The notes under the pieces were generated by a model. That model saw only the letters and a program-made list of their open reading frames with translations, did no database searches and had not been told where the DNA came from. Below, in pieces: positions 576 to 38,667 of a stretch of 46,152 nucleotides of DNA. The DNA comes from Alkalihalobacillus bogoriensis ATCC BAA-922 (GTDB lineage Bacteria > Bacillota > Bacilli > Bacillales > Bacillaceae_F), in assembly GCF_000621445.1 (NCBI RefSeq), contig NZ_JHYI01000037.1, forward strand, positions 1 through 46,152, read 5' to 3'. Within the stretch, counting starts at the first letter, position 1. Every line of letters starts with the position of its first letter. A program made the translations under genes and the position numbers.

Positions 576-754
576 TGGACATATATTCCACTATTTTATA
601 AAAAACAAGCTCTTTTGGACTTCGTTTGGACATCTTTTCCGTTATTTGACGAAAACACAAGTAATAAACTTCTGTTTTTCTAATGTAACGGAACAGATGT
701 CCGATAGTATCTCGAAAACTTACCTTTTTCTTAAAATAGCGGAACATATGTCCG
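576..754. repeat. Four-unit palindromic intergenic element, copy A
   Basis: Four related 13-bp cores lie at 577, 628 (both GGACAT...TTCC, inverted) and 690, 741 (both GGAACA...ATGTCC, direct). The steps are 51, 62 and 51 bp. Outer cores 577/741 and inner cores 628/690 match as inverted repeats at 12 of 13 positions each. The element starts 5 nt after the T-run of the rRNA terminator. Three further copies with the same geometry are at 32508, 36122 and 37866. The rest of the 571-930 gap shows only an ATGATC/GATCAT inverted repeat (886-903). Confidence 0.9.
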
Positions 755-5215: not shown

Positions 5216-5242
5216 GAACATATCGAAAAAAATTGAACGTTA

Positions 5243-5311
5243 CCTCATATAATATCGGGGATATGGCCCGTAAGTATCTACCTAATGACCTTAAATCATT
5301 AGACTATGAGG
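5243..5311 (+). promoter_or_regulatory. Purine riboswitch aptamer (guanine/hypoxanthine type)
   Basis: P1 pairs CCTCATA (5243-5249) with TATGAGG (5305-5311). P2 pairs CGGG/CCCG (5256-5259, 5267-5270) with the conserved 7-nt L2 GATATGG. P3 pairs CTAATGA/TCATTAG (5282-5288, 5296-5302) with L3 CCTTAAA, close to the consensus CCGTAAA. The specificity base is C5304 in GACTATG, which means guanine or hypoxanthine rather than adenine. It turns off the pur operon when purines are abundant. Confidence 0.96.
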
Positions 5312-5318
5312 GAAGGCA

Positions 5319-5350
5319 GAAGCTCTTATTAACTAAGAGTTTTGTTTTTT
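5319..5350 (+). terminator. First leader hairpin of the pur riboswitch platform
   Basis: CTCTTA (5323-5328) pairs with TAAGAG (5334-5339); the stem can extend outward by AAG/TTT with G-U pairs. It is followed by TTTTGTTTTTT. It looks like a weak intrinsic terminator ahead of the main one. Confidence 0.55.
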
Positions 5351-5462: not shown

Positions 5463-5948
5463 ATGAAGCCACTTGTAGGTGTCATAATGGGAAGTATTTC
5501 AGATTGGGAAACAATGAAACATGCCTGTGATATGTTGGACGAGCTAGAAATCCCATACGAAAAACAAGTTGTCTCTGCTCACCGTACACCAGATTTAATG
5601 TTTGACTATGCTGAAGCGGCAAGAGAAAAAGGACTAAAAGTCATTATTGCAGGAGCTGGAGGTGCCGCACACCTACCAGGTATGGTCGCAGCGAAAACCG
5701 TCGTGCCTGTCATTGGGGTACCTGTGCAATCGAAAGCGTTAAATGGACTAGATTCTTTATTATCTATCGTGCAAATGCCTGGTGGAGTACCAGTAGCCAC
5801 TGTAGCCATTGGTAAAGCAGGTGCTACAAATGCTGGCTTATTGGCTGCACAAATCGTTGGTGCGTTTGATGAGAAAGTCGCCGAAAGTTTGGAGAAAAGA
5901 AGAGAACAAACAAAACAACAAGTAATGGAAAGCAGTGACCAACTATGA
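5463..5948 (+). CDS. purE: N5-carboxyaminoimidazole ribonucleotide mutase PurE
   Basis: A 161-residue class I PurE, which converts N5-CAIR to CAIR in de novo purine synthesis. The family signatures are visible: [10 protein letters not shown] (residues 9-18), SAHRTPD (38-44) and [11 protein letters not shown] (64-74) with His70 of the active site. Ser11/Asp14 and His40/Arg41 fit the nucleotide-binding residues. AGGAGG lies 11 nt before the ATG. This is the first gene of the pur operon and overlaps purK by 4 nt (ATGA), the usual sign of translational coupling between these partner enzymes. Confidence 0.97.
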
Positions 5949-31283: not shown

Positions 31284-32456
31284 ATGGTGGTTAAACGAAT
31301 ATGGCTTGCTATAGTAGGAAGTATAGTTTTCATATCAGGATGTTCACCGTTCTTACAGCCTGAGGAAGAAATCGTAGAAGAAGGTCCGATTGAAGAAGAA
31401 CAAGTCGTGGAGTTAAGTCCTGATGTATATACACCGGAAAATTATTATCGCAGTGTATTGTATGATGGGAAATATCAACACGGGGAAGCAAGAGGGTTTA
31501 GCACGGCTGTTGTTCATAACCGTCTTGATTTAGAACAGCTAGAGTTAGGTTTAACGGTTATCGCACAAGAACAATTTGATCCGGAACAATATTTTTTTAG
31601 AGAAGGAAAATATATTAAACGTGATGAGTTAAATAGCTGGTTAATGCGTGAGTCTGAAGATAACCCGAACGGTCTTAACCCGCCATTAGGTGAAGGGGAA
31701 GATGACAAAGCAAGAGAAGAAAACCAACCTCGGTATTTGTCTCATATTCTCGAGCATAATTATTTAGTTGAAAATTCCAACGGACAACTTGAGCTAGGTG
31801 GAATTGTCGTTGGCCTCTCGATGAACAGTATCTATCATTTCCGAATCATCGATGAAAACGGTGGCTATTATTTTTATGAGCAAGAAGTCGACCGTGATGA
31901 GATGATTAAAGCGGGACAAAAAATGGCAGATCAAGTGGTCGAGCGGCTCCGTTCCGAAACGAGAGAAGAAGGGATTTTAAGTGAAATTCCGATTGTCGTT
32001 GCGTTGTTTGAAGAGCAACAACGTGAAGCGGTTATTCCTGGAACTTTTATTTATAAAGCGGTGGCAGAGCCGAATCGTGAAATCGGAAACTGGCAAAAAA
32101 TAAATGAACGTTATTATTTGTTCCCATCCACTGAAGCGAATAATGACCAACGAAATGACGCCGAACGAGTTAGTAAATTTAACGAAGAAGTTAATGACTT
32201 CTTTGATAATTATATTGGAGTTGTCGGAAAAGGTTACTATAAAAACGAACAGCTTCAAGAACTAAGCATTGAAGTTCCGATTCGCTTTTATGGAAAAACG
32301 GAAGTTGTTGCTTTAAGTCAATATGTCGCTGATAAAATTACACAAATATTTCCATCCGGCTATAAAGTCCAAGTATATATCACATCCATTAGTGGTCAAG
32401 AAAGCTTAATTGTCCGTAATCCAGATGAAGAACCATTTATTCATATTTACCGCTAA
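31284..32456 (+). CDS. camS: CamS-family sex pheromone lipoprotein (YerH)
   Basis: A 390-residue lipoprotein: signal peptide MVVKRIWLAIVGSIVFISGC with the lipidated Cys at residue 20, then an acidic linker (EEEIVEEGPIEEEQVVEL) and the CamS domain. Family segments include PENYYRSVLYDGKYQHGEARGF, LEHNYLVENSNGQLELGGIVVGLSMNS and IPIVVALFEEQQREAVIPG. In enterococci and staphylococci, CamS-type signal peptides give sex pheromone peptides; in Bacillus the role is unknown. AGAGGAGGG is 4 nt before the ATG. It probably belongs to the pcrA-ligA transcript (32 bp gap). Confidence 0.93.
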   Translation: MVVKRIWLAIVGSIVFISGCSPFLQPEEEIVEEGPIEEEQVVELSPDVYTPENYYRSVLYDGKYQHGEARGFSTAVVHNRLDLEQLELGLTVIAQEQFDPEQYFFREGKYIKRDELNSWLMRESEDNPNGLNPPLGEGEDDKAREENQPRYLSHILEHNYLVENSNGQLELGGIVVGLSMNSIYHFRIIDENGGYYFYEQEVDRDEMIKAGQKMADQVVERLRSETREEGILSEIPIVVALFEEQQREAVIPGTFIYKAVAEPNREIGNWQKINERYYLFPSTEANNDQRNDAERVSKFNEEVNDFFDNYIGVVGKGYYKNEQLQELSIEVPIRFYGKTEVVALSQYVADKITQIFPSGYKVQVYITSISGQESLIVRNPDEEPFIHIYR

Positions 32457-32462
32457 ACATCC

Positions 32463-32506
32463 AAAGCTGTCGAATTCTTTCTCGACAGCTTTCTTTGCTC
32501 TTTTTT
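32463..32506 (+). terminator. Intrinsic terminator of camS
   Basis: AAAGCTGTCGA (32463-32473) pairs perfectly with TCGACAGCTTT (32482-32492). A TTTTTT run ends at 32506, one base before repeat element B. The same stem core is used after gatB. Confidence 0.85.
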
Positions 32507-32507
32507 A

Positions 32508-32686
32508 AGGACATAGGTTCCGTTATTTAAAGGAAAAACACTGTTTCTCAAAAGCTTACGGACACAGGATCCGTTACTATCGCAAAATGAGATGTTTTTG
32601 TCGCTCGTTTCGTCAAATAACGGAACGTATGTCCGAAAAGGAAGAGAAAAACGAAGAATTTTATAAAGTAGCGGAATAGATGTCCG
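32508..32686. repeat. Four-unit palindromic intergenic element, copy B
   Basis: Inverted cores at 32509 (GGACATAGGTTCC) and 32560 (GGACACAGGATCC); direct cores at 32622 (GGAACGTATGTCC) and 32673 (GGAATAGATGTCC). Steps are 51, 62 and 51 bp. Inverted units are followed by GTTATT or GTTACT and direct units preceded by AATAAC or AGTAGC. It begins right after the camS terminator T-run. Confidence 0.93.
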
Positions 32687-32768
32687 GAACGGGACTAGTA
32701 TTATTATGCGAATATAATTTTTAAAAAGTGATAGAAATGGAGAAACCTTGCATGGTGCTTGAGGTTTG

Positions 32769-32797
32769 TTGCCTAATAGAACGTAATTTGGTATTAT
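32769..32797 (+). promoter_or_regulatory. Probable sigma-A promoter of gatCAB
   Basis: TTGCCT (32769-32774), 17-bp spacer, TATTAT (32792-32797), 40 bp before the gatC start. Confidence 0.6.
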
Positions 32798-32837
32798 CAA
32801 TTTATTGTAAACGGAACGACTAATGGAGGTGGAGAAA

Positions 32838-33128
32838 ATGTCTCGAATTTCAGAAGAACAAGTGAAACACGTCGCTCATCTTGCAAGACTTTCAATTACA
32901 GATGAGGAAGCGGTTAAATTTACGAAACAATTAGATGCGATCATCACATTTGCCGAACAATTAAATGAGCTTGATACAGAAAACGTTAAACCAACCTCTC
33001 ACGTGTTGGATATGAAAAACGTATTACGTGAGGACAAGCCTGAAAAAGGATTGCCAGTTGAAGAAGTTTTAAAAAATGCCCCTGACAAAGAAGAAGGACA
33101 ATTTAGTGTCCCTTCGATATTAGAATAG
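32838..33128 (+). CDS. gatC: Asp-tRNA(Asn)/Glu-tRNA(Gln) amidotransferase subunit GatC
   Basis: A 96-residue scaffold subunit of the GatCAB amidotransferase that makes Gln-tRNA(Gln) from Glu-tRNA(Gln). It starts [20 protein letters not shown] and contains [19 protein letters not shown] and [16 protein letters not shown], as in B. subtilis. ATG 32838 is preferred because GGAGGTGGAG lies just upstream; ATG 32823 overlaps that site. First gene of the gatCAB operon, 18 bp before gatA. Confidence 0.95.
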
Positions 33129-33146
33129 AGAGGAGGATTTACGTTC

Positions 33147-34604
33147 ATGTCATTATTTGATTTTAAGATAGCTGAACTACATAACAAATTACATAAAAAA
33201 GAAATATCGGTTTCGGATTTAGTCAGTGAATCATATAAACGCATTCATGAGGTGGATGACAAAGTAAAGGCGTTCATTACCCTTGATGAAGAACGCGCAA
33301 CAGCATATGCTAAGCAATTAGATGAGGCGGTGGGAACGAAAGATCAATATGGCCTCTTATTTGGTATGCCGATTGGAATTAAAGATAATATCGTGACAAA
33401 AAACTTACGTACAACATGTGCAAGTCGAATTTTAGAAAACTTCAACCCCATTTATGATGCAACAGTTGTGCAAAAGTTAACAAGCGCCGAAGCTGTAACG
33501 ATTGGAAAGCTTAATATGGATGAATTTGCGATGGGTTCCTCCACTGAAAATTCAGCATTTGCTGATACAAGAAACCCTTGGAATTTAAATACTGTACCAG
33601 GAGGATCAAGTGGTGGTTCGGCTGCTGCGGTTGCTGCAGGAGAAGTCCCATTTTCACTAGGCTCTGATACAGGTGGGTCGATTCGGCAGCCAGCTTCTTA
33701 TTGTGGTGTCGTTGGCTTAAAACCAACTTATGGCCGTGTTTCTCGCTTTGGATTAGTGGCATTTGCTTCATCATTAGATCAAATTGGTCCAATCACAAAT
33801 ACAGTCGAAGACAATGCGTATTTATTACAAGCGATTTCTGGGGTCGACAAAATGGACGGAACTTCAGCTAATGTTGATGTCCCAGACTTTTTATCATCTT
33901 TAACAGGAGATGTAAAAGGCTTAAAAATTGCAGTGCCAAAAGAGTACTTAATGGAAGGTGTGCAAGCAGAGGTAAAGCAATCGGTTCTTGATGCCCTTAA
34001 AGTGTTAGAAGGGCTTGGAGCAACATGGGAAGAAGTATCTCTTCCTCACTCTAAATATGCCCTTGCGACTTATTATTTACTATCTTCTTCTGAAGCATCA
34101 GCTAATCTTTCACGCTTTGATGGTGTTCGCTACGGATATCGTTCAGACAACGCAGATAATCTCATTGATATGTACAAAAATACGAGAGCAGAAGGCTTTG
34201 GTGAAGAGGTTAAACGTCGAATTATGCTTGGAACGTTTGCATTAAGTTCAGGCTATTATGATGCGTATTATAAAAAAGCACAAAAAGTACGGACGTTAAT
34301 TAAAGAAGATTTTGAAAATGTGTTTGAAAAATATGATGTCATCATCGGACCAACAGCACCAACTCCTGCATTTAAAGTTGGAGAAAACATCGATGACCCA
34401 ATGACAATGTATGCCAATGATATTTTAACGATTCCAGTAAACCTAGCTGGTGTACCTGGTATATCAGTGCCGTGCGGATTTTCAAATGGACTTCCACTAG
34501 GATTACAAATCATCGGAAAGCATTTTGATGAAAGCACTGTCTATCGTGTTGCTCACGCATATGAACAAGCAACAGATTACCATAAACAAAAACCACAATT
34601 GTAA
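33147..34604 (+). CDS. gatA: GatCAB glutaminase subunit GatA
   Basis: A 485-residue amidase-signature protein that hydrolyses glutamine and channels ammonia to GatB. The Ser-cis-Ser-Lys triad is intact: Lys79 in GIKDN, Ser154 in [15 protein letters not shown] and Ser178 in [10 protein letters not shown]. The length matches Staphylococcus and Bacillus GatA. AGAGGAGG lies 8-9 nt before ATG 33147. Confidence 0.97.
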
Positions 34605-34619
34605 AGGGGTGAAACGAAA

Positions 34620-36050
34620 ATGAAATATGAAACGGTCATTGGTCTTGAAGTCCATGTCGAGTTAAAAACAGAATCAAAAATTTTCTCTGCAAGTCCGAAC
34701 CATTTCGGGGACTCACCAAATTCAAATACGTCTGTTATAGATTTAGGTTACCCAGGTGTGTTACCTGTTTTAAATAAAGCAGCTGTAGAATTTGCGATGA
34801 AAGCTGCGATGGCGTTAAATTGTGAAGTAGCGACAGAAACGAAGTTCGACCGAAAGAATTATTTTTACCCGGATAATCCTAAGGCATATCAAATTTCGCA
34901 ATTTGATAAACCGATTGGGGAACATGGGTGGATTGATATCGAAGTCAATGGAGAGAAAAAGCGAATCGGCATTACTCGCTTGCATTTAGAAGAAGATGCA
35001 GGGAAACTAACGCATACGAGTAATGGCTACTCATTAGTCGATTTTAACCGTCAAGGCACACCTTTAATTGAAATCGTATCCGAACCAGATATTCGAACAC
35101 CTGAAGAAGCTTATGCTTACCTTGAGAAATTAAAGTCGATCATCCAATATACAGGTGTGTCTGATTGTAAGATGGAAGAAGGATCGTTACGTTGTGACGC
35201 TAATATTTCCTTACGTCCAGTCGGACAAAAAGAATTTGGAACGAAAACGGAATTGAAAAATTTAAACTCGTTTAACTTTGTAAGAAAAGGGTTAGAGTTT
35301 GAAGAAATTCGCCAAGAAAAAGTTTTACTAGCTGGTGGCGTGATTGATCAAGAAACACGTCGTTTTGATGAAGCGAAAAACGAAACGATTTTAATGCGGG
35401 TTAAAGAAGGATCGGATGATTATCGTTATTTTCCAGAGCCAGATTTAGTGGAATTATATATTGATGATGAATGGAAAGAACGGATTCGTGCCGAAATACC
35501 AGAGCTACCAGATAAACGAAAAGCGCGTTATGTGGAACAGCTAGGGTTGCCAGCATATGATGCTAACGTCTTAACATTAACGAAGGAAATGTCTGATTTC
35601 TTTGAAGCAACTGTAGGGGCTGGTGCTGATGCCAAACAAGCTTCAAACTGGTTAATGGGTGAAGTTTCTGCTTATCTAAATGCAAATGGGCAAGAAATTG
35701 GAGATGTTCCGCTAACACCAGAAAGCTTAGCTTCGTTAATTGGACTCATTGAAAAAGGAACGATCTCTTCGAAAATTGCAAAGCAAGTTTTTAAAGATTT
35801 AATTGAAAAAGGTGGAAATCCTGAGGATATCGTAAAAGAAAAAGGACTTGTTCAAATTTCAGATGAGGGGGAATTATTGAAAATAGTAACGGAAATTATC
35901 GATAACAACCAACAGTCTGTTGAAGACTTCAAAGCTGGAAAAGAAAAGGCGATTGGATTCCTCGTCGGACAAGTTATGAAGGCGACTAAAGGAAAAGCAA
36001 ATCCACCAATGGTGAATAAATTGTTAATGGAAGAACTAAAGAAAAGATAA
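34620..36050 (+). CDS. gatB: GatCAB amidotransferase subunit GatB
   Basis: A 476-residue subunit that phosphorylates and amidates the misacylated tRNA-bound Glu or Asp. It opens with [24 protein letters not shown], contains [19 protein letters not shown] and the signature [10 protein letters not shown]...[20 protein letters not shown], then [16 protein letters not shown]. The C-terminal YqeY-like tRNA-binding tail (from about residue 330) ends [34 protein letters not shown] precedes the ATG; a perfect terminator follows. Confidence 0.97.
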
Positions 36051-36082
36051 AGAATAGAAGTAGCCAAACAGGTCTGCTTCAT

Positions 36083-36120
36083 AAGCTGTCGAGACAATCT
36101 CGACAGCTTCCTTATTTTTT
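36083..36120 (+). terminator. Intrinsic terminator of gatCAB
   Basis: AAGCTGTCGAGA (36083-36094) pairs perfectly with TCTCGACAGCTT (36098-36109) around a 3-nt loop, followed by CCTTATTTTTT. Its stem core is the same as that of the camS terminator. Confidence 0.93.
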
Positions 36121-36121
36121 G

Positions 36122-36300
36122 CGGACATAGGTTCCGCTATTTGAAGGTTTTCTACTGATTACACAATGGTAACGGACGCTGGTTCCGTTATTGTAAGAAA
36201 TGGAGAGCACTAGAGTACTATTTTTGTGAAATAGCGGAACGTATGTCCGATAAGAAACGAAAAAAACGTGATTTTGCTAGAATAGCGGAACACATGTCCG
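36122..36300. repeat. Four-unit palindromic intergenic element, copy C
   Basis: Inverted cores at 36123 (GGACATAGGTTCC) and 36174 (GGACGCTGGTTCC); direct cores at 36236 (GGAACGTATGTCC) and 36287 (GGAACACATGTCC). Steps are 51, 62 and 51 bp. The best-conserved copy: direct units read AATAGCGGAAC...ATGTCCG. It lies between the terminators of the convergent gatB and VOC genes, one base after the gatB terminator T-run. Confidence 0.94.
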
Positions 36301-36312
36301 TTATGGAAATAT

Positions 36313-36347
36313 AAAAAGCCCCCTGGTGAAATTGTTCAAGGGGCTCT
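36313..36347 (-). terminator. Intrinsic terminator of the minus-strand VOC gene
   Basis: On the minus strand GAGCCCCTTGAA pairs with TTCACCAGGGGGCT with small bulges, followed by TTTTTAT. It lies just after the VOC stop. Confidence 0.8.
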
Positions 36348-36352
36348 ATTTC

Positions 36353-36733
36353 TTACTCTATTGCACTACAAATTTCAATATAATGGCCATCAGGGTCTGA
36401 CACATAAGCAACAATTTGGCCCCATGGCTTTTCAATAGGTTCGACTAACACAGGTACCCCTTTTTCACGAAGAAATTCAATAGTAGCAGGTACATCATCT
36501 ACAACAAATCCTAATTCAAATGTGTTAGAGGACATTCTTTCTTGAAAAGTAAAACCTGTCATTTCAGTAATGTCTTCTTTTATATTAATTGCAAGTATCG
36601 TATTTCCTGTGGAAAATTCAATGTAGGTCCCGTGTTCGCCACGAATCGGTAATTGGAGAAGATGATGATAAAACTGAACAGAACGTGTTGTATCGTCGAC
36701 ATATAAAATAATGTAATTCATTTTAATTTCCAT
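36353..36733 (-). CDS. VOC (glyoxalase/bleomycin resistance) family protein
   Basis: A 126-residue protein with the two beta-alpha-beta-beta-beta modules of the vicinal oxygen chelate fold. Module 1: MNYIILYVDDTTRSVQFYHHLLQLPIRGEHGTYIEFSTGNTILAI. Module 2: FELGFVVDDVPATIEFLREKGVPVLVEPIEKPWGQIVAYVSDPDGHYIEI, with the metal-site Glu/His pattern DPDGHYIEI at the end. Such proteins act as dioxygenases, glyoxalases or drug-binding proteins; the substrate cannot be told. AGGAGG is 6 nt upstream of ATG 36733. It is the only well-supported minus-strand gene between 18.6 kb and the right end and is absent from this place in B. subtilis, as I remember it. Confidence 0.88.
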   Translation of the reverse strand: MEIKMNYIILYVDDTTRSVQFYHHLLQLPIRGEHGTYIEFSTGNTILAINIKEDITEMTGFTFQERMSSNTFELGFVVDDVPATIEFLREKGVPVLVEPIEKPWGQIVAYVSDPDGHYIEICSAIE

Positions 36734-36890
36734 CGAATACCTCCTTTTTTAATGTAAATATTCGGGTTTATTGGAAGAAAACCCTTTAAAATAGATCAGG
36801 TTATGCACGTCACTAGAAAACATTATTAAAAAAAGGTACAATGGACATGTTAAATGATGGAATAATTCTTTGAAAAAAGTAGGAGATAGT

Positions 36891-37784
36891 ATGAGAGCTC
36901 GAGTAATATATAATCCTTCATCAGGAAGAGAACAAATGCGCAAACATTTGCCATATATATTAGAACGCTTAGAAAAGGTTGGTTATGAAGCTTCTGCTCA
37001 CGCGACAACTGGAGATGGTTGCGCAACGAGAGCAGCAAAGCTGGCAAGTGAGCGTCGTTATGATCTCGTCGTTGCAGCTGGTGGTGACGGAACAATTAAT
37101 GAAGTGGTCAATGGGTTGGCTGAACAACCATATCGTCCTAAATTAGGATTGCTTCCAGCAGGGACAACAAATGATTTTGCCAGAGCGTTATCGATCCCAC
37201 GAGATATAATCGAAGCGTGTGACATTTTATGTGAAGGTCATACGATCCCTGTCGATATTGGAAGAGCGGAAAATCATTATTTCGTTAATATTGCAGCAGG
37301 CGGGACGTTGACAGAGCTAACGTATGAAGTGCCGAGCAAACATAAAACATTAATGGGGCAACTAGCCTATTATATGAAAGGTTTTGAAAAGCTACCGACT
37401 ATTGCGCCAACCGCTGTTCGAATTGAGTATGATGGGAAGCTGTTTGAAGGCGAAATCATGATGTTTTTAATTTGTAACACTAATTCAGTTGGAGGTTTTG
37501 AGCGTTTAGCTCCGAAAGCGCTGTTGAACGACGGGATGTTTGATTTATTGCTAGTCAAAAAAACATCATTCCCAGAATTTATTCGAATTGCTAGTAGGGC
37601 ATTACGTGGCGAACATATTAATGATGAAAAAGTGATGTATATTCAAGCAAGTCGAGTGAAAGTTGAAGTGGCGGGCGATATGCAGCTCAATCTTGACGGC
37701 GAATATGGTGGGATGCTTCCAGGTGAGTTTGTAAATTTATATCATCATTTTGATATGCTAGCACCAAAACCGAAAGACAAATAA
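36891..37784 (+). CDS. dgkB: Diacylglycerol kinase DgkB
   Basis: A 297-residue soluble diacylglycerol kinase that returns DAG, released by lipoteichoic acid synthesis, to phosphatidic acid. The kinase motif is AAGGDGTINEVVNGL (residues 62-76, GGDGT at 64-68). LPAGTTNDFARAL (88-100), ERLAPKALLNDGMFDLLLV and the C-terminal LNLDGEYGGMLPGEFVNLYHH match B. subtilis DgkB closely. ATG 36891 follows AGGAG by 5 nt; TTG 36870 is less likely. A TACAAT -10-like box lies at 36837-36842 without a clear -35. It is separated from rlmCD, its B. subtilis neighbour, by about 6.6 kb of other genes. Confidence 0.95.
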   Translation: MRARVIYNPSSGREQMRKHLPYILERLEKVGYEASAHATTGDGCATRAAKLASERRYDLVVAAGGDGTINEVVNGLAEQPYRPKLGLLPAGTTNDFARALSIPRDIIEACDILCEGHTIPVDIGRAENHYFVNIAAGGTLTELTYEVPSKHKTLMGQLAYYMKGFEKLPTIAPTAVRIEYDGKLFEGEIMMFLICNTNSVGGFERLAPKALLNDGMFDLLLVKKTSFPEFIRIASRALRGEHINDEKVMYIQASRVKVEVAGDMQLNLDGEYGGMLPGEFVNLYHHFDMLAPKPKDK

Positions 37785-37806
37785 AGTCAATTCGCTATTT
37801 TAAGCG

Positions 37807-37843
37807 GGGTGTCCAAACAATAAGTTTTTGGACACCCTTTTTT
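37807..37843 (+). terminator. Intrinsic terminator of dgkB
   Basis: GGGTGTCCAAA (37807-37817) pairs perfectly with TTTGGACACCC (37827-37837), followed by TTTTTT. Confidence 0.92.
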
Positions 37844-37865
37844 GTGTAATGGAAGCAAAATCTTA

Positions 37866-38045
37866 CGGACATATAATCCTTTAACGTGGGAAAAAACAGC
37901 AGAATTAATAACGTAATGGACACCTATTCCGCTATTAGTGAAAAATGAAGACAAAAACCCCCGAAAAACATGGCAATAACGGAACGAATGTCCGATAAAA
38001 TTCAAAAAGGCCCGATTTTACATTAAATAGCGGAACAGATGTCCG
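37866..38045. repeat. Four-unit palindromic intergenic element, copy D
   Basis: Inverted cores at 37867 (GGACATATAATCC) and 37918 (GGACACCTATTCC); direct cores at 37981 (GGAACGAATGTCC) and 38032 (GGAACAGATGTCC). Steps are 51, 63 and 51 bp, so the centre is one base longer than in the other copies. It lies 22 bp after the dgkB terminator T-run and 60 bp before the sigma factor ribosome binding site. Confidence 0.92.
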
Positions 38046-38133
38046 AATGAAAAAAGTTTTTCAAAAGAAGTGTAGGGTTTTCGCTACGAACGATCGTCTA
38101 TTACTATAGCAAGACAGAAAGGAGGGAGAGCTT

Positions 38134-38667
38134 ATTTTAGATGAAAGAATAATAGAGAAAGCGAAAGCGGGCAATAAGCAAGCGTTTCGACTTATTGTCA
38201 CGACGTATCGAGACCATATTTTCAAAACGGTCTACAGTGTGTTGCGCAACCAAAAAGATGCAGAAGATGCGGCTCAAGAAGTGTTTCTAAAAGTCTATCA
38301 TGCTCTCCCTCAATATCAAGGGAATGGCTTTAAAACATGGATGACAACAATTGCTGTTCGTTATGCAATTGATGTAAAGAGGAAATTAGCCAAAGTTGAG
38401 CACGAGGAAATCAACCAACAGGAAGTCGATGACAAAACATCGGTGGAAGAAGAAGTAATAACAAAAGAAAAAGTGGAGCTAATAAGACGGAGATTGCAAG
38501 ATGTTCCTGTGAATTACCGAGATGTCCTTATTGATTTTTACATACATGAAAAAAGCTATAAGCAAATGGCGACTGAACACAATGTAGAAGTAAAAACGAT
38601 TGAAACAAAATTATACCGAGCAAGGCATTGGGTTAAACGAAATTGGAAAGAGGAGGAATTTAAATGA
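38134..38667 (+). CDS. ECF-like RNA polymerase sigma factor
   Basis: A sigma-70 family protein of about 177 residues. Region 2 reads AKAGNKQAFRLIVTTYRDHIF, then VLRNQKDAEDAAQEVFLKVYHALPQYQ and FKTWMTTIAVRYAIDVKRK; region 4 reads VPVNYRDVLIDFYIHEKSYKQMATEHNVEVKTIETKLYRARHWVKR. Homology begins well before the first in-frame ATG/GTG/TTG (GTG 38239). Between the upstream stop TAG (38107-38109) and 38239 there is no standard start codon. AAAGGAGG ends at 38125, exactly 8 nt before ATT 38134, so an ATT start is proposed. The stop overlaps the anti-sigma start (ATGA). It differs from SigM, SigV, SigW and SigX; YlaC is the nearest type I can think of. An N-terminal sequencing error remains possible. 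Confidence 0.8.
   Translation: MLDERIIEKAKAGNKQAFRLIVTTYRDHIFKTVYSVLRNQKDAEDAAQEVFLKVYHALPQYQGNGFKTWMTTIAVRYAIDVKRKLAKVEHEEINQQEVDDKTSVEEEVITKEKVELIRRRLQDVPVNYRDVLIDFYIHEKSYKQMATEHNVEVKTIETKLYRARHWVKRNWKEEEFK

Follow-up and report, generated by a model that had tools for sequence, protein, structure and literature searches.

Introduction

Most bacterial nucleoid proteins bind DNA loosely and leave little trace in its sequence. The matS and Noc-type sites are short palindromes found at many places of the chromosome and bound by a nucleoid-linked protein, which occur as single sites and are either confined to the terminus or avoid it. For the Bacillus proteins RemA and LrpC, ring-like or nucleosome-like wrapping of DNA has been proposed, and RemA is described as having an AT-rich footprint, in which 7-bp protections and 3-bp gaps make up a 10-bp repeat, over poorly conserved sites (PMC8481266). 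Among repeated sequences, the REP and BIME families comprise abundant, short palindromic intergenic units, present in both orientations and at regular spacing, for which roles in chromosome organisation and termination have been proposed (PMC2817692, PMC3733652), the second source also describing families with a GTAG or CGTC tag. The elements bcr1, Bant-1 and Bhal-1 are repeated intergenic sequences of Bacillus of about 70-170 bp, which are filed as stem-loop families, and a title in the reference list of the same source ascribes mobile-element traits to bcr1 (PMC2267715).

The element described here was detected at positions 36122..36300 of a window of 46,152 nucleotides, a stretch of the genome of Alkalihalobacillus bogoriensis ATCC BAA-922. 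It shares with REP and BIME abundant short palindromic intergenic units clustered in both orientations at regular spacing, but it differs in having four sites in a fixed geometry of five and six helical turns, AT-phased linkers, and a hairpin pairing that is not conserved. Like bcr1, Bant-1 and Bhal-1, it is repeated intergenic DNA; the contrast with them lies in their filing as stem-loop families and in the mobile-element traits of bcr1. RemA and LrpC are analogues only: the likeness lies in the proposed wrapping, whereas the poorly conserved sites reported for RemA contrast with a near-invariant dyad every 50-51 bp at hundreds of places. With the matS and Noc-type sites the element has in common the short palindromes at many places; its sites, however, come in fours, and a GT variant of the unit is found all round the chromosome of a congener (G001), including about 2.3 and 2.6 Mb, on which ground a function limited to the origin or the terminus was rejected. 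Six unit strings had no match in the papers searched, and keyword searches, which covered mostly titles and the beginnings of abstracts, gave no description of this family. The element would thus be classed as a dispersed, putatively protein-binding intergenic repeat, with a real chance of forming a category of its own.

Architecture and abundance of the element

The element at 36122..36300 consists of two units on the minus strand (36122-36136 and 36173-36187) followed by two on the plus strand (36235-36249 and 36286-36300), with successive steps of 51, 62 and 51 bp and an orthologue at G001:C1:423836. The same steps are found at 576..754, 3' of a 5S rRNA gene (414-529), with units at 576-590 and 627-641 (minus) and 689-703 and 740-754 (plus; orthologue G001:C1:388500), and at 32508..32686, with units at 32508-32522 and 32559-32573 (minus) and 32621-32635 and 32672-32686 (plus; orthologue G001:C1:420221). 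A fourth copy, at 37866..38045 (units 37866-37880 and 37917-37931, minus; 37980-37994 and 38031-38045, plus; orthologue G001:C1:425578), has steps of 51, 63 and 51 bp. A sequence-only reading of the window had already recognised these four copies with these steps, and all of them are present, their units starting one base away from the core positions that it gave. In total, 11 matches to the unit at up to two mismatches occur in the window, against 0.35 expected from shuffled sequences.

In the whole genome to which the window belongs (G000; 5.0 Mb in 51 contigs, with G001 and G002 as congeners), the unit CGGAACNNATGTCCG has 763 matches with at most one mismatch, 388 and 375 on the two strands, against 1 for a reversed control pattern. 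The order within an element is - - + +, since the AATAR side of each unit, the AATARCGGAAC half, faces the element centre; this side is the better conserved. The consensus of the four-unit alignment, AATARCGGAACNNATGTCCGWWA, is a dyad, TANCGGA-N7-TCCGNTA, and conservation ends about 10-13 bp outside units 1 and 4. Spacers drift, as the earlier reading had remarked, with a mean pairwise identity of 45% for spacers versus 58% for the whole element among 25 distinct G000 elements.

That these repeats form a family, and are not mostly isolated units at random spacing, is borne out by a wider search, where 176 of 198 units in 626 kb of G000 and 166 of 173 in 500 kb of G001 (at most one mismatch) sit in four-unit elements. 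Scaling on the units gives an estimate of about 208 such elements in G000 and 249 in G001. The 40 four-unit elements found in 446 kb of G000 (the window plus 20 stretches picked after a hit list, a non-random sample of biased density) comprise 27 at 51/62/51, 6 at 51/63/51 and 7 with other steps, namely a centre of 61, 60 or 67 or an arm of 49 or 50. Over all fetched loci, the central step is 62 in 46 of 63 intervals of G000, 33 of 49 of G001 and 30 of 36 from other genomes; the remaining centres mostly measure 60-64 and rarely 43, 44, 55, 59, 67, 72, 92 or 111-114, the last being cases of a missed or lost inner unit.

Longer arms occur in Paenibacillus, with two minus units and up to six plus units, or three minus and two plus, usually around a 62-bp centre. 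Repeated spacer sequence at three loci (L088, L094 and L096), judged by eye, suggests that these arms may grow by tandem duplication of a unit together with its spacer. At three loci the congeners differ by a single step of about 51 bp, which may be a gain in one or a loss in the other. The longest array seen, at G058:C3:136852-137762 (L083), is made up of about 17 units of mixed orientation, spaced at about 50-52, 62 and larger distances.

Distribution among genomes

Among 61 genomes, the window's own and 60 relatives, the highest unit counts were those of G001 (918), G000, G058 (177) and G013 (49), followed at a distance by G033 with 17 units (control 2), while the congener G002 has 8 (control 1). 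A search over one genome per species, which may omit records very near the window, found the exact four-unit pattern at nine loci of Paenibacillus humicus, two of Paenibacillus sp. FSL A5-0031 and one of Halalkalibacter alkalisediminis; the respective unit counts are 139, 71 and 28 (controls 9, 6 and 3). The same unit and the same geometry are therefore common to G000, both Paenibacillus and Halalkalibacter. A strict inner-pair pattern, which drifted elements would escape, matched 1 of 398 Bacilli genomes, the window's own. Within the genus of P. humicus, two of eight genomes have 108 and 123 units, one has a single unit and five have none. This abundant-or-nearly-absent occurrence among relatives provides ready-made comparisons, and the grammar common to Paenibacillus and Bacillaceae-like genomes suggests what would be a transferable chromosome-organising system.

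No match was obtained by BLAST of one G000 and two P. humicus elements against plasmids, or of one P. humicus element against phages, searches in which copies with other spacers would be missed. Three scans of viral contigs matched only two related ones, from IMG/VR, both carrying one related and partly decayed element (L139:1362-1540 and L140:439-617) upstream of a shared 164-aa ORF.

Conservation at fixed orthologous places

The G000 and G001 chromosomes are collinear across the regions compared, and 30 of 37 G000 elements have a four-unit orthologue in G001, 2 being altered and 5 unplaced; in the opposite direction the figures are 29 of 43, with 5 altered and 9 unplaced. In the 30 G000/G001 pairs, where the elements were located through their units (with a ceiling of 13 mismatches per 52 core letters) and the flanks take in poorly alignable ends, substitutions affect 54 of 1558 positions in unit cores (3.5%), 28 of 240 in the free NN, 405 of 3559 in spacers (11.4%) and 448 of 2372 in flanks. 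The cores thus change at a rate 3.3 times below that of the spacers, and in a 21-pair set the comparison of cores (43/1090) with spacers (350/2489) gives a Fisher p of 8e-22. The second lineage, an independent pair from another family, repeats this pattern: in four elements compared between G450 and P. humicus, changes number 4/208 in cores and 79/468 in spacers (Fisher p 1.4e-9), 2/32 in the NN and 127/382 in flanks.

Gap columns are likewise unevenly spread. The 30 G000/G001 pairs have 2 in cores, none in the NN, 20 in spacers (of about 3,580) and 58 in flanks (of about 2,430); between G450 and P. humicus there are none in cores or NN, 1 in spacers (of 469) and 37 in flanks (of 419). The few changes in cores and the few gaps in spacers indicate that, in two lineages, both the units and the lengths of the spacers are maintained locus by locus. 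Selection on geometry, which the sequence-only reading had proposed from the constant steps, is thus supported by the rarity of spacer gaps relative to flanks and by the whole-turn spacing with phased AT described below. Still, in 15 of the 30 orthologous pairs at least one step is 1-2 bp longer or shorter in one genome than in the other.

Helical phasing

Substitutions are fewest at -20, -10/-9, -5 to -3, +3 to +6, +9/+10 and +20/+21 from the unit centre. On the centre-facing side of the unit they follow a period of 10.5 (permutation p 0.0035), and on the outward side the period of 11.25 falls short of significance (p 0.076). Within the element, information content varies with a period of 10.0-10.5 bp, a result reached by 0 of 1000 permutations in each of three profiles, and this periodicity is absent beyond units 1 and 4; such permutation tests, both for substitutions and for information, ignore the smoothness of the profiles.

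Base composition follows the same rhythm and gives the most clear-cut evidence of it. Measured from the unit centre, AT peaks fall at 9-10, 20, 30-31 and 41 in the arm intervals and at 10, 20, 31, 42 and 52 in the central interval, with AT-poor valleys between them, and a continuous helical phase predicts the peak seen halfway along the 62-bp interval. Six sets of intervals from three lineages were compared after removal of similar spacers (Paenibacillus, 50 arm and 22 central; G000 with G001, 106 and 53; G058 with G013 and Halalkalibacter, 29 and 14), and in each the observed power was reached by 0 of 2000 circular shifts. The best-fit periods, taken on short intervals, are 9.5, 10.0, 11.25, 10.25, 10.25 and 10.25, and the G000 and G001 arms have an extra AT-rich shoulder at 13-15. 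A peak roughly every 10 bp, aligned with the unit centres, implies that 51 and 62 bp correspond to five and six helical turns. The spacers of P. humicus have 33% GC within loci of 59% GC.

In 11 Paenibacillus elements, positions -22 to -20 and +20 hold A or T about equally and -13 to -9 are mostly AAATA, so that away from the unit it is the pattern of weak and strong bases that is kept. A weak/strong pattern of about 10 bp characterises DNA that bends with its minor groove facing inward, as around a nucleosome. The AT phasing in register with the units that characterises a nucleosome-like wrapping site was thus found in the six interval sets of three lineages, and also in the information profile.

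Alternative explanations

The placement of the element invites an explanation at the RNA level, by which it would work at gene ends as a bidirectional terminator or as mRNA-stabilising hairpins, a polymerase from either side meeting CGGACAUNNGUUCCG and then YUAUUU, that is, a weak hairpin and a U-rich run. Of 37 G000 elements, 14 lie in convergent, 20 in tandem and 3 in divergent ORF gaps, against 61, 269 and 63 of 393 adjacent ORF pairs; another set, from Paenibacillus, Halalkalibacter and two G001 loci, some of them overlapping, gives 15, 14 and 6 of 35 (ORFs were called mechanically, and a few neighbours are spurious). Units outside four-unit elements are intergenic as well, 28 of 29 in 1.1 Mb, with one in a predicted ORF. 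On 36 of 105 gene-end sides, orthologues being counted twice, the stop codon is followed by the element in 30 nt or less and no terminator was detected in that gap, although this absence is partly forced, because so short a gap can hardly hold one. The 36122 copy folds strongly as a single RNA (z -6.5), as is expected of complementary units. Against these points, where the gap is at least 60 nt a terminator already precedes the element on 31 of 42 sides, versus 203 of 357 gene ends without an element, as at 36122 itself, where a consensus scan places an intrinsic-terminator-like hairpin at 36083..36109 (plus strand), outside the element and between it and the upstream ORF, so that this copy stands beyond a terminator. 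Moreover, terminators need neither a fixed sequence nor helical-turn spacing, and distances from element to gene are often larger, hundreds of bases in Paenibacillus, so a terminator role cannot be general.

Covariation also fails the RNA explanation in every test. In 25 distinct 51/62/51 elements, Watson-Crick pairing of opposed arm spacers is 0.458 versus 0.479 for shuffled partners (z -1.6), pairing between units 1 and 4 and between units 2 and 3 stays at the level of shuffled ones (z 0.4 and 1.4), and no signal came from the central spacer or from folds within an arm. Inside the unit (258 distinct sequences), pair 1-15 deviates through C-A and A-G mismatches and pair 6-11 (z 2.2) mainly through T-G; pairs 2-14 and 3-13 score above shuffled controls (z 6.3 and 3.6) because rare deviant letters co-occur in degenerate units as non-pairs (C-A, C-T) and not as compensated pairs. 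Neither the long RNA hairpin suggested by the sequence-only reading, nor the cruciform, which would need the same complementarity, is borne out. The comparison with Bacillaceae-1 which that reading had proposed also came to nothing: at Rfam gathering scores there is no hit over the elements, and in window positions 32400-38200 no Bacillaceae-1 appears even at E <=5, a level that yields sub-threshold matches only, one of which overlaps the element (T-box, 16.5 bits for a cut-off of 93). We regard a device acting in RNA as improbable, and of the three options raised by that reading, a multi-subunit protein binding site appears to fit best. Were the sites ordinary operators of a regulator controlling the neighbouring genes, a dyad of ordinary operator length would be natural, and the unit partly resembles the Gram-positive LexA/SOS box, GAAC-N4-GTTC. 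The hundreds of copies, mostly at 3' ends or in convergent gaps, make this very hard to believe, even though the few divergent placements of G000 are relatively more numerous in the other set. The SOS box itself was discarded: the unit reads GAAC-N4-GTCC, with C at position 13 in 98-100% of G000 and G001 units where the box has T, and 29 of 44 Paenibacillus units have GATC.

A further explanation is a non-autonomous mobile element, of the MITE or REPIN-like kind, in which the - - and + + units would be the subterminal sites recognised by a transposase at the two ends of a transposon that has lost its interior, with copies spreading whenever a matching transposase enters a genome. The all-or-little occurrence among relatives, the unit common to Paenibacillus and Bacillaceae-like genomes and the inverted layout agree with it, and so does the presence of RAYT-like Y1 proteins in G000, G001, G058 and G063, there being none of that kind among the four Y1 matches of the unit-poor G002. 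We nevertheless judge it unlikely, if less so than the RNA device. Among the placed loci of G000 and G001 there is no clear pair of insertion and empty site, and the seven altered loci of both directions retain units, differing by steps, a deletion or inserted sequence; the relatives of P. humicus that lack elements, at 70-80% identity, are too diverged for such a comparison. The similarity over the whole length expected of a MITE or bcr1-like family was not found, as spacers of different copies are unrelated, at the identity given above for G000 and at 39% among nine P. humicus elements (ungapped, and somewhat understated by 1-bp register shifts), with tandem duplicates and rRNA-linked copies as exceptions. 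Nor are inert copies expected to conserve their units at fixed places. In addition, PF01797 has no match in either Paenibacillus genome, and no unit at up to two mismatches lies within 3.3 kb of four RAYT-like loci.

Membership in the REP/BIME-RAYT system was rejected. In the PF01797 search of seven genomes (no hits in G061 or G062), none of the 16 hit loci scanned has a RAYT gene flanked by two inverted units, the nearest being a Y1 fragment at a contig end with a single unit (L119) and a locus with three two-mismatch matches (L106); neither a GTAG nor a CGTC tag is present in AATARCGGAACNNATGTCCGWWA, and a conserved stem-loop with compensated pairs was not found. A RAYT-like Y1 gene occupies the same place in G000 and G001 (L117:1468-2034 and L112:1297-1884), between a 104-aa ORF and a 141-aa ORF that we take to be fabZ-like, with no units nearby. 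At four G001 rRNA loci (L077:8500, L080:15567, L081:5369 and L082:10883) the element stands 46-47 bp after the 5S rRNA gene, as does the window copy at 576, and these four are 89-94% identical to each other. A recent transposition burst in G001 was dropped for this reason, the near-identical copies sitting at rRNA operons in 4/4 sampled rRNA loci. One locus, G001:C1:1958185-1959778 (L072), is the orthologue of G000 C2:207841 split by an insert of about 1.4 kb between units 3 and 4.

A probable docking array for a DNA-bending or wrapping protein

The reading that we prefer, and consider probable on the strength of these sequence patterns, sees the element as an array of docking sites in double-stranded DNA for a putative sequence-specific and probably dimeric protein, which would bend or wrap about 200 bp. 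The unit, its geometry, the phasing and the site-by-site selection are shown by the sequences, with repetition in a second lineage. Each unit (AATARCGGAWCNNATGTCCGWWA, with the dyad TANCGGA-N7-TCCGNTA) would be a single binding site, contacted over some 40 bp. With a helical repeat of about 10.2-10.3 bp, the units would stand five turns apart in the arms and six across the centre, a whole-turn spacing that would set the bound dimers on one face of the DNA. The linkers are AT-rich about once per turn, in phase with the unit centres, and AT-poor in the stretches between; this pattern resembles that of nucleosome-type wrapping and points to a complex that bends or wraps the DNA. Bending without complete wrapping would account equally well for both the in-phase spacing and the AT phasing. 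Both the binding and the wrapping, and their purpose, we infer from these patterns. The likeliest purpose would be that of a fixed architectural or insulating intergenic block, in many cases between convergent genes, which would limit read-through or anchor the structure of the chromosome. Among ten ORFs beside arrays, six belong to known Pfam families, none of them DNA-binding.

A bolder version, which we put forward tentatively and rate as somewhat less likely to be right than wrong, would make the element a bacterial equivalent of a nucleosome-positioning sequence, in a system that spans the genome and is addressed by sequence: at each of about 200 fixed intergenic sites, a horizontally acquired putative protein would wrap about 200 bp, with five-turn arms extendable outward from a six-turn centre, as permanent architectural blocks of the chromosome. 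The footprint is readable in the sequence itself, in dyads every five turns, AT phasing and site-by-site selection, and so gives a direct way to look for the protein and for its influence on chromosome folding or transcription boundaries.

Orientation signal and other features

The free NN of inner units in G001 depends on the replichore, GT variants being oriented in the direction of replication in 66 of 85 cases, by a hand count. For a G at N7, the ratio of elements with it in unit 3 only to those with it in unit 2 only is 17:1 on the left and 3:11 on the right. Pooled inner NN have a G:C ratio of 1.5 and a T:A ratio of 1.5, versus 1.30 and 0.94 in spacers. We lean towards a leading-strand base bias at the free NN as the source of this signal, of which it explains only part; an EM fit of element polarity was over-fitted and was discarded.

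The window also contains a purine riboswitch aptamer at 5225-5326, upstream of ORFs starting at 5463. A second, unrelated intergenic repeat of about 185 bp, found at L012:5957-6141 (G000:C2:185957-186141), has no credible Rfam match. It is present in dozens of copies in G001, at about 86-95% identity (40 candidates scored), and among the candidates scored it lies mostly on the plus strand below about 2.5 Mb and on the minus strand above.
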